Shown here one piece after another: positions 22,682 through 25,201 of a stretch of 64,000 nt of DNA. The position numbers and the translations under genes are program-made. The notes beneath the pieces were generated by a model that had not been told where the DNA came from, made no database searches, and saw only the letters and a program-made list of their open reading frames with translations. The stretch is from Geomonas subterranea (lineage in GTDB: Bacteria; Desulfobacterota; Desulfuromonadia; Geobacterales; Geobacteraceae): contig NZ_CP077683.1 in assembly GCF_019063845.1 (NCBI RefSeq), positions 2,294,001 through 2,358,000 on the forward strand, written 5' to 3'. Position 1 is the stretch's first letter; every line of letters starts with the position of its first letter.

Positions 22682-23024
22682 CAACGCAAAGGCGCCAAGG
22701 CGCCAAGACGCAAAGCAGAAAAAACAGGATTTACTGCAAAGGCAAAAACAAAAAGACAACTTCATTTTTAACGCAAAGACGCAAGGGCGCAAAGAATAAA
22801 GCAACAACTAGAAGAAAGTCTGAAACTATTACCCCCAAAAGGGTGTTTCTCCTTGCGCCTTCGCGGCTTTGCGCCTTTGCGTTAAAGCTTTTGCTGCGAT
22901 TGTTTTTACGATAACTTCTTTTGTTAACGCAAAGACGCAAAGAATAAAGCAACAACTAGAGGAAAATCTGAAACGATTACACTCACAGGGGTGTTTTCTT
23001 TGCGTCTTCGCGGCTTTGCGTTAA
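22682..23024. repeat. GCAAAGACGCAAAG inverted-repeat elements, two full copies and a fragment
   Basis: Copy 1 (22768-22885) and copy 2 (22924-23024) each start TTAACGCAAAGACGCAA and end with the complementary CTTCGCGG-CTTTGCG-TTAA type arm. Their middles are also alike (GAATAAAGCAACAACTAGA). A partial unit is at 22682-22717. Each could fold into a long hairpin. They fill the whole gap between pfkA and the selenoprotein gene. Confidence 0.75.
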
Positions 23025-23039
23025 ATCATGCTTTAGGTT

Positions 23040-23681
23040 CTATTGTTTCAGCGCGTCGAGGATGGCCTGCGGCTCCAGGCGGTCCCTGGGATCGCTGTCG
23101 GCATAGCTGGTGATGATCCTGCCGTCCCGCCCCACGACGAAGGTCCCCGGCATGGGGAGCTCCCACGATTCATCGGCGTTGAATTCGGGGAGGTTCACCC
23201 CCAGATCCTTGTAGAGCCCCTGGACCCAGTCGGGGAGCCGGTACACCAACCCGTACCTGCGCGCCACCACGTTGCCCAGATCACTCAGCACCTCGTACTG
23301 CAAAAAATTCTTCAATAGCGTCGCCTGCGACTTGTCCGGACTCTGCGGCGAAATCGCCATCAGCGACGCACCGCGCTGCAGTATTTCCGGAAGTATCTTC
23401 TGGTAGGCCCTCAACTGAAGGCTGCAGTAAGGTCACCAGATCCCCCGGTAAAAGGTGACCACGGCGGGACCGTGCGCCAGCGCGTCGGCCAGCGCCACCG
23501 GAATCCCCACCGCGTTTGGGAGGACAAAGTCGGGTGCGGCGTCGCCCGCCCCGGGAACCTCGGCCGTGATCACCTTCTGCGCGATCTCGGCGTAGGCACG
23601 ATCAAACTGCACCTTCACCTCCGGGACCAGCGCCATGCCCTGCTCCAATCGTTCGATCTGAGATCTGAGGTCCTGTTCCAT
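23040..23681 (-). CDS. peroxiredoxin-like selenoprotein with U-x-x-C motif
   Basis: One reading frame with a single internal TGA at 23435-23433. The flanks are FYRGIW before and PYCSLQLRAYQ after, so the TGA takes the place of the first cysteine of the W-C-P-Y-C motif of thioredoxin-fold AhpC/TSA-like peroxiredoxins. Read as selenocysteine it gives Sec83-P-Y-C86 in a 213-residue protein from ATG 23681 (MEQDLR, GGAGAGG upstream). The downstream half keeps full family character (MPGTFVVGRDGRI). Peroxiredoxin-like selenoproteins are known in this group. It would reduce peroxides or act as a thiol redox enzyme. A nonsense mutation is the alternative but is much less likely given the codon replaced and the hairpin after it. 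Confidence 0.85.
23407..23435 (-). promoter_or_regulatory. candidate bacterial SECIS element
   Basis: After the TGA (23435-23433), the mRNA can form the stem GCCUUC (23422-23417) with GAGGGC (23412-23407) around the loop AGUU. The loop begins 16 nt after the UGA and has G as its second base, which fits the loose rules for bacterial SECIS elements recognised by SelB. Confidence 0.65.
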
Positions 23682-23818
23682 AACGCCTCTCCGCTTTTTC
23701 CCCGCGACCACCACTATTTTCCCGCTGCGCCAGCGATTCATTTTACGCTGATTCGCCAAAACGTCAATGTTTCTCCGCAATTCCGCCTGCCGGGCACAGA
23801 TTCAGACAATTGTATATT

Positions 23819-23834
23819 TTTGACCCAGGTCATA
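23819..23834. promoter_or_regulatory. HcpR-like operator
   Basis: TTTGACC-CA-GGTCATA, with a perfect inverted TGACC/GGTCA core, resembles the CRP/FNR-family HcpR site (TTTGACC-N2-GGTCAAA) that governs hcp and other nitrosative-stress genes. It lies 57 bp upstream of the start of the hemerythrin operon. Confidence 0.65.
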
Positions 23835-23890: not shown

Positions 23891-24127
23891 ATGGAATTCA
23901 AAAACGGCTTGGGCGATACGGCGATTCAAAACGTGATTGCGAACCACCCGGAGATCGGGGAGATTCTTAACCGCTACGAGATCGGATGCGTCACCTGCAA
24001 GGTCGGCATCTGCCTCCTGAAGGACGTCGTCTCCATCCACGGCCTGACGCAGGAGCAGGAAGCGGCGGTGGAAACAGAAATAAATGACTATTTGGACGCA
24101 AAAGCGGAAAATCGCAGGGTCGCCTAG
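23891..24127 (+). CDS. DUF1858/ScdA-N-like small protein
   Basis: 78 residues from ATG 23891 (MEFKNG, with GGAGGAAACAG upstream). It shows the DUF1858 / ScdA N-domain pattern: a hydrophobic helix (VIANHPEIGEILNRYEI) then GCVTC and GICLL. Such domains form the first half of the iron-centre repair proteins ScdA/YtfE and occur alone with hybrid-cluster proteins. First gene of a three-gene operon with the Fe-S-type protein and the hemerythrin downstream, behind the HcpR-like site, which points to nitric oxide or oxidative damage response. Confidence 0.75.
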   Translation: MEFKNGLGDTAIQNVIANHPEIGEILNRYEIGCVTCKVGICLLKDVVSIHGLTQEQEAAVETEINDYLDAKAENRRVA

Positions 24128-24190
24128 AATATTCGGAACGGCACACGCCACAACCACAACGAACACGACATATAAAAGGGAGAAGTAGAC

Positions 24191-24649
24191 ATGGCACATG
24201 CAGGATGCGGCTGCCCCGGCAGCATGGCAAGGGTTATCGAGAGAAACGAGGCAACCGAGAACGAGAACACCGTGAAGGCGGCTTCCGAGCTCCGGCAGTG
24301 GCCGGTGCAGCTGCACCTGGTCCCCCCCACCGCCCCCTGGTTCCAGGACAGCGAGATACTGATCGCCGCCGACTGCGTGGCGTTCGCGCTGGGGAGCTTC
24401 CACAGCGACCTGTTGAAAGGGAAGGCGCTGGCGATTGCCTGCCCGAAACTGGACGACACCGCCCCGTACGTCGAGAAGCTGGCCCGGATCTTCAGCGAGA
24501 ACAACGTGAAGAGCATCACCGTCGCCATCCTGGAAGTCCCCTGCTGCCGCGGTCTCGACATGATGGTGCGCCAGGCGCTGGCACAGTCCGGCAAGGAGAT
24601 CCCGCTGGAGACCGCGGTGATCGGCATCAACGGCGAGAGGAGAAACTAG
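24191..24649 (+). CDS. conserved protein of ferredoxin-associated type, N-terminal CGC motif
   Basis: 152 residues. The N-terminus has the compact AGCGCPGS, and two adjacent cysteines occur in VPCCRGLDMM. The core (RQWPVQLHLVPPTAPWF, ADCVAFALGSFH, ALAIACPKLDD, SITVAILEVPCC) matches proteins that elsewhere carry two 4Fe-4S ferredoxin motifs ahead of it. Here the ferredoxin part is absent, so this is the short form. It may bind iron or a cluster through the remaining cysteines. A G-rich site (AAAAGGGAGAAG) precedes the ATG. It is followed after 3 bp by the hemerythrin gene. Confidence 0.65.
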   Translation: MAHAGCGCPGSMARVIERNEATENENTVKAASELRQWPVQLHLVPPTAPWFQDSEILIAADCVAFALGSFHSDLLKGKALAIACPKLDDTAPYVEKLARIFSENNVKSITVAILEVPCCRGLDMMVRQALAQSGKEIPLETAVIGINGERRN

Positions 24650-24652
24650 GCC

Positions 24653-25201
24653 ATGAAACAGGACGTCACCCAGAGGCTTAAGGACGAGCACCAGTTGATT
24701 CTCAGGATGCTGGCCCTTTTGGAGAAGAACGCGCGGCTCACAGAGGAAGGGACCTTCAAGGATTACCAGTTTTACCTGGACGGTGTTGACTTCATAAGGA
24801 ACTACGCCGACCGTTTCCACCATGCCAAGGAGGAGGATGTCCTGTTCGAAGCGCTGGTGGAAAACGGCATGCCCCGGGACAACAGCCCGGTAGCGGCCAT
24901 GCTGATGGAGCACGACCTCGGTCGCGCCTACGTGAAGGCTATGGAAGAGGCGGCGACGAGGGCGCTGAACGGCGAGGCGGGGCAGGAAGAGGCCATCGTC
25001 GCCAACGCCAGGGGATACCTGGACCTCTTGCGGGAGCACATCGCGAAGGAGGATGACATCCTCTACCCGCTCGCCGAGCGGATCCTCCCCGAAGGGGTGC
25101 GCCACGGCATCGTCGCCGGGTACCAGAAGGCGGAGCAGAGATCGGAGGCGGGGTTCGAGAAGCACTACCAAAGCGTGGTGGAGAAATACGAGAGAGGCTA
25201 A
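24653..25201 (+). CDS. hemerythrin HHE domain protein
   Basis: 182 residues forming a four-helix bundle with di-iron ligands visible in order: DEHQLI near residue 13, FHHAKEEDVLF near 57, MEHDLGR near 84 and REHIAKEDDILYPL near 123. This is the YtfE/RIC-like HHE arrangement, and with the ScdA-N-like protein two genes upstream it makes a split version of an iron-centre repair protein. It probably binds O2 or NO or repairs Fe-S clusters. It is last of the operon, and no terminator hairpin is obvious before the repeat at 25232. Confidence 0.85.
   Translation: MKQDVTQRLKDEHQLILRMLALLEKNARLTEEGTFKDYQFYLDGVDFIRNYADRFHHAKEEDVLFEALVENGMPRDNSPVAAMLMEHDLGRAYVKAMEEAATRALNGEAGQEEAIVANARGYLDLLREHIAKEDDILYPLAERILPEGVRHGIVAGYQKAEQRSEAGFEKHYQSVVEKYERG

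Follow-up and report, generated by a model that had tools for sequence, protein, structure and literature searches.

Does the gene at positions 23681..23040 (minus strand) of the Geomonas subterranea window, the whole 64,000-nucleotide stretch of DNA analysed here, encode two broken proteins or a single intact one? Mechanical ORF listing returns two ORFs of 115 and 124 amino acids, for each of which the tool picked a TTG start; the initial annotation had expected ordinary gene calling to split the gene. From the sequence comparisons presented here, we are highly confident that the apparently broken gene encodes one intact Sec-containing redox protein, with UGA read as selenocysteine (Sec) and SelB recruited by a hairpin. 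Gene callers for which TGA is always a stop would cut this protein in two, and it could therefore be absent from redox and selenium inventories of this soil and sediment genus.

The reading frame and its protein family

The two same-phase frames that the initial annotation saw divided only by a TGA form one open frame (23040..23681, minus strand) of 213 codons, which runs to a TAG stop and holds a single in-frame TGA at codon 83 (23433..23435, minus strand). We assign it as a putative selenoprotein gene from its frame, its PF00578 match and its homologs. As had been proposed, the TGA occupies the place of the first redox cysteine of a CxxC motif: the frame and the codon alignment with relatives, among which a Cys codon is found here, make it the predicted Sec of W-U-P-Y-C. 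By the same frame and alignment, codon 86 (23424..23426, minus strand) specifies the partner Cys of U-P-Y-C.

The joined protein matches the Pfam family AhpC/TSA (PF00578) at 5.8e-26 over residues 46-190, spanning the TGA, and its score of 91.3 bits against a cut-off of 26 places it in this family. The downstream half alone matches at 8.3e-14 and the upstream half alone at 7.4e-4, below the Pfam cut-off. None of the NCBIfam models reaches its cut-off, the best being thiol peroxidase (38.9 against 140), and the model for SelL-related redox protein, NF040769, gives 35.6 bits against 120, too low for membership. The motif U-P-Y-C is not that of TxxU peroxiredoxins, which have Thr in the first and Sec or Cys in the last place. 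The protein probably belongs to cd02970 (PRX_like2).

The two TTG-started genes are ruled out as real units, as relatives keep the single frame. That no stop interrupts the downstream frame says little by itself, since 234 of 20000 base shuffles of it are stop-free as well. The strength of the selenocysteine case comes from the comparison with relatives, not from the open frame or the RNA fold alone.

Conservation across the in-frame TGA

A first homolog search gave some match in 42 of 58 genomes, often only a weak one to a different redoxin; several further redoxin matches also have one TGA. Full-length homologs occur in every genus genome searched (19, source included) and in G046, a genome of another family. 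Codon 83 is TGA in 16 of the 19 and a Cys codon (TGC or TGT) in the remaining three (G007, G015, G016), and the G046 homolog has TGT at this position. Among the 16 TGA proteins of the genus, full-length identity to the window protein is 61-93% (100% for itself). A search of the class with the alignment matched 60 of 277 genomes at 1e-20, with 65 matches in all: TGA is found in 58 (one in G125 also with TAA) and is lacking in seven, and 42 matches carry the same TGA beyond the 16 genus genes. Four further TGA genes came from a GTDB scan limited to the top 80 of its 479 relatives; its loci L044-L056 are repeats of genus genes and were excluded from the counts.

A true stop, or a gene in decay through pseudogenization or sequencing error, would suit the split in the mechanical ORF listing, but it is very improbable for a TGA shared by 16 of the 19 genus genomes, whose proteins keep this identity over the whole length, and by 42 further class-scan matches, and a sequencing error would not recur across genomes. 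Relatives that also stop at this codon and show no conservation beyond it had been named as evidence that would count against a selenoprotein; the protein is conserved past the TGA.

In 148 rows mapped to the profile, a set that leans to Cys since one of the two GTDB scan patterns required Cys at the position, the codon at the Sec position is TGA in 62, TGC in 55, TGT in 29 and ACC in 2, and never TGG. The genus and class rows derive from searches without a Cys-requiring pattern. The frame would be open under any decoding of the UGA, including as Trp or Cys or by leakage without SelB, but we give such readings hardly any credence in view of this exchange pattern, even in a Cys-leaning set, and of two further features described below that fit Sec, namely the frozen hairpin and the presence of selA, selB, selC and selD.

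The family set on one profile comprises 62 TGA and 75 Cys rows (137 rows). The Cys rows exclude nine non-family rows (the first frame of L028, L030-L036 and L038), and one Cys alignment consists of 61 of the 75, with near copies and second copies removed by hand. The motif reads UPYC in 60 and UPFC in two of the TGA rows, and CPYC in 66, CPFC in eight and CPWC in one of the Cys rows. In a 20-row alignment, only the columns of U83 and C86 hold a Cys-type residue throughout, and one other column has Cys in three rows.

Selenocysteine machinery

The initial annotation had asked for selA, selB, selC and selD and had regarded a lack of selC or selB as damaging. All four genes were found over their cut-offs in the source genome (one contig of 4,991,523 bases), with 600.3 bits for selA, 395.7 for selB, 73 for selC and 360 for selD. 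Both selB and selC are present in all 20 genomes in which they were sought, including the three with the Cys form. The selD gene of the source genome (L042) itself contains one in-frame TGA and thus likely encodes a selenoprotein as well. One relative, G004, has two tRNA-Sec matches over the cut-off (G004:C3:35448-35541 and G004:C19:306886-306979) and likewise two selB matches (G004:C1:969416 and G004:C19:315021).

The hairpin behind the TGA

A proposed bacterial SECIS element at 23407..23422 (minus strand), assigned from predicted fold, codon conservation and pairing, has six pairs and an AGUU loop at 23413-23416; the predicted fold adds a few lower pairs beneath. The 6-bp hairpin with its AGUU loop had been described correctly in the initial annotation, but its start was put at 16 nt, which is where the loop opens; the upper stem already starts 10 nt behind the TGA. 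Bacterial selenoprotein genes are expected to have a stem-loop directly after the UGA whose small apical loop contains a G, as worded in a passage of PMC1088965, and the hairpin agrees with this. The fold of the window gene by itself is weak evidence for a SECIS element (z -1.15, with 27 of 200 shuffles folding equally well; z -1.69, p 0.05 in a second test).

Codon use is more telling across the 16 TGA genes. They share 97 invariant columns, of which 93 allow synonymous codons, and 18 of the 93 keep a single codon (two-fold degenerate 11/28, three-fold 0/3, four-fold 3/36, six-fold 4/26). The four frozen six-fold codons are +4, +5, +7 and +8 after the TGA, all within the hairpin, an outcome with a chance of 1 in 14950 if columns are alike. 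At some of these frozen places, the three genus Cys genes have other codons. The Cys gene L023 keeps the AGUU loop above a stem that is poor by eye, and its predicted fold differs; loop and stem are perhaps a remnant of the hairpin.

Across the 137 family rows, three different hairpins lie at about the same place behind the TGA. Type I, with the AGUU loop, occurs in 24 TGA rows; type II, with a long stem and a three-base loop, in 34; and type III in four. Type I is paired in 96.5% of 114 cells (19 distinct TGA rows); the Cys rows (60 distinct, 360 cells) reach 48.1%, no more than shuffles do, and slid versions of the hairpin pair in at most 57.9%. Its outer pair 14-29 fails in four of the 19 distinct rows. 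One pair (18-25) is changed on both sides, in eight of the 19, which may reflect few events on the tree, and 498 of 500 shuffles reach that number of pairs. The covariation score is reached by none of 500 shuffles, a result that relatedness alone can cause. Type II pairing is 97.7%, compared with 36.3% for Cys rows at the same pairs; no covariation beyond shuffles was found (500 of 500 as high), so type II is argued from conservation alone. Against synonymous recoding, mean z is -1.97 for type I (24 rows) and 0.31 for Cys (75 rows), and weak for type II (-1.16) and type III (-0.40).

Hairpin types on the family tree

We placed the 137 rows on a quick tree (LG+G4, Sec column masked) in which 44 of 129 inner branches are open (support under 80) and long branches meet; the rows are non-independent, 132 of 137 being different (L057 and L130, for example, are identical). 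The four labels Cys, Sec I, Sec II and Sec III need at least eight changes on this tree, as does Cys versus Sec, and the starred branches force five changes for the Cys group. By type, there are five changes for I, two for II and one for III. On the quick tree the types do not form one clade: Cys rows separate them, and type I itself is scattered over several places. The three genus Cys genes fall inside a starred clade of 19 in which the TGA gene L027 branches off outermost, the fork that excludes it having a support of 92. Such nesting fits a change from Sec to Cys within the genus.

It is tempting to propose that Sec arose more than once at the same codon, each time with its own hairpin, and that Cys was regained from Sec in the genus, though we give this proposal rather less than an even chance. 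The competing possibility is that Sec is ancient in the family, was lost many times and had a hairpin that drifted. Comprising 62 rows with TGA, 75 with Cys and three types of hairpin, the family would be a good set for following gain and loss of Sec together with its hairpin.

Upstream region and neighbours

Pattern matching placed a -35-like hexamer TTGACG at 23762..23767 and a -10-like hexamer TAAAAT at 23740..23745 (both minus strand); the former is matched in 18 of 19 genus loci. A palindrome, TGACN4GTCA, lies between the divergent genes at 23821..23832 and is a candidate HcpR-like site by motif match. It is present in all 19 genus loci, and in 16 hexamer-bearing loci out of 18 (15 TGA genes and L025) a distance of 59.5-60.5 bases separates its centre from the start of the -35-like hexamer; this spacing is not kept in L023 and L026, and L027 has no hexamer match. 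The palindrome is close to the HcpR motif wyTTGACnnnnGTCAArw given for Geobacter and Desulfuromonas in a published excerpt. Motif and near-fixed spacing suggest control by a CRP/FNR-type nitrosative stress regulator, and the site may serve either divergent gene. The divergent cluster (23891-25201, plus strand) encodes two proteins without Pfam match, the first of them small, and a hemerythrin (2.8e-20). On the other side, towards a phosphofructokinase gene, the intervening 22700-23030 contains repeat-like stretches rich in 'acgcaaagacgcaaag', and several relatives have comparable words behind the gene.

Predicted structure and proposed mechanism

The predicted model, computed with Cys at 83 in place of Sec, has a mean pLDDT of 94.3 and a pTM of 0.91 and shows a helix (84-95) directly behind residue 83. 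The nearest solved folds in Foldseek are BcpB, Bcp4, Bcp1, a Sulfolobus peroxiredoxin-like protein and AhpE (TM-score 0.57-0.66 by query length), i.e., peroxiredoxins of the Bcp/PrxQ/AhpE kind, with ResA-type thiol-disulfide oxidoreductases from rank 13 on. When the sequence is matched to 2cx3, a Ser stands opposite the Sec, and the Cys three residues further along stands opposite Cys86. From the placement of residue 83 ahead of the modelled helix, the near folds and this alignment, we infer that a U83-C86 selenenylsulfide would be a natural intermediate.

In the mechanism that we propose, UGA codon 83 would be decoded as selenocysteine within a single protein of 213 residues, the hairpin with its upper stem 10 nt behind the UGA recruiting SelB with Sec-tRNA(Sec). 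The product would adopt a thioredoxin fold with Sec just ahead of the helix bearing Cys86. Sec83 would attack a peroxide or a disulfide, Cys86 would then resolve Sec83 to the selenenylsulfide, and a thioredoxin-like partner would reduce it.

Whether the selenoprotein is a thiol-disulfide oxidoreductase instead of a peroxidase is a question within the Sec reading, and we put the oxidoreductase only just short of even. Its motif is thioredoxin-like UxxC and not TxxU, excerpts of published work term such proteins Prx-like thiol:disulfide oxidoreductases, and ResA-type proteins are among the near folds, while the best Pfam family and the best folds are peroxiredoxins. The name peroxiredoxin-like given in the initial annotation is correct for fold and Pfam family, with peroxidase activity putative.

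Comparison with known selenoproteins

Within the literature collection covered, no paper linked selenoproteins with Geomonas, Citrifermentans or Geobacter bemidjiensis and one did with Desulfuromonadia, and the motif letters gave only chance words among the best 10 of 910 hits; an earlier publication of the protein may nonetheless exist. The statement that Prx-like selenoproteins are known in Geobacter relatives is in print: a portion of PMC1794560 lists Prx-like proteins for three Geobacter species, including Geobacter uraniumreducens. TxxU selenocysteine peroxiredoxins share fold and Pfam family with the protein described here but have Sec at the last motif place, whereas it stands at the first here. 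A TxxU-type peroxiredoxin gene with an in-frame TGA was also seen in a related genus (L029:1501-1839); it aligns weakly with the protein. A section of PMC13188914 reports Prx-like proteins with UxxC or UxxU and a cd02970 peroxiredoxin-like protein with UxxS, in contrast to UxxC here, and the latter and our protein probably belong to the same wider family. Closest by description are the published UxxC Prx-like selenoproteins, introduced in part of PMC1088965 as a Prx-like family with UXXC replacing TXXU and given as Prx-like 1-3 with UxxC in an extract of PMC2398784: they likewise combine PF00578, UxxC for TxxU, Cys homologs and a bacterial hairpin after the UGA. As a kind, UxxC Prx-like selenoproteins are thus already known from these excerpts, and the gene described here is a further member.
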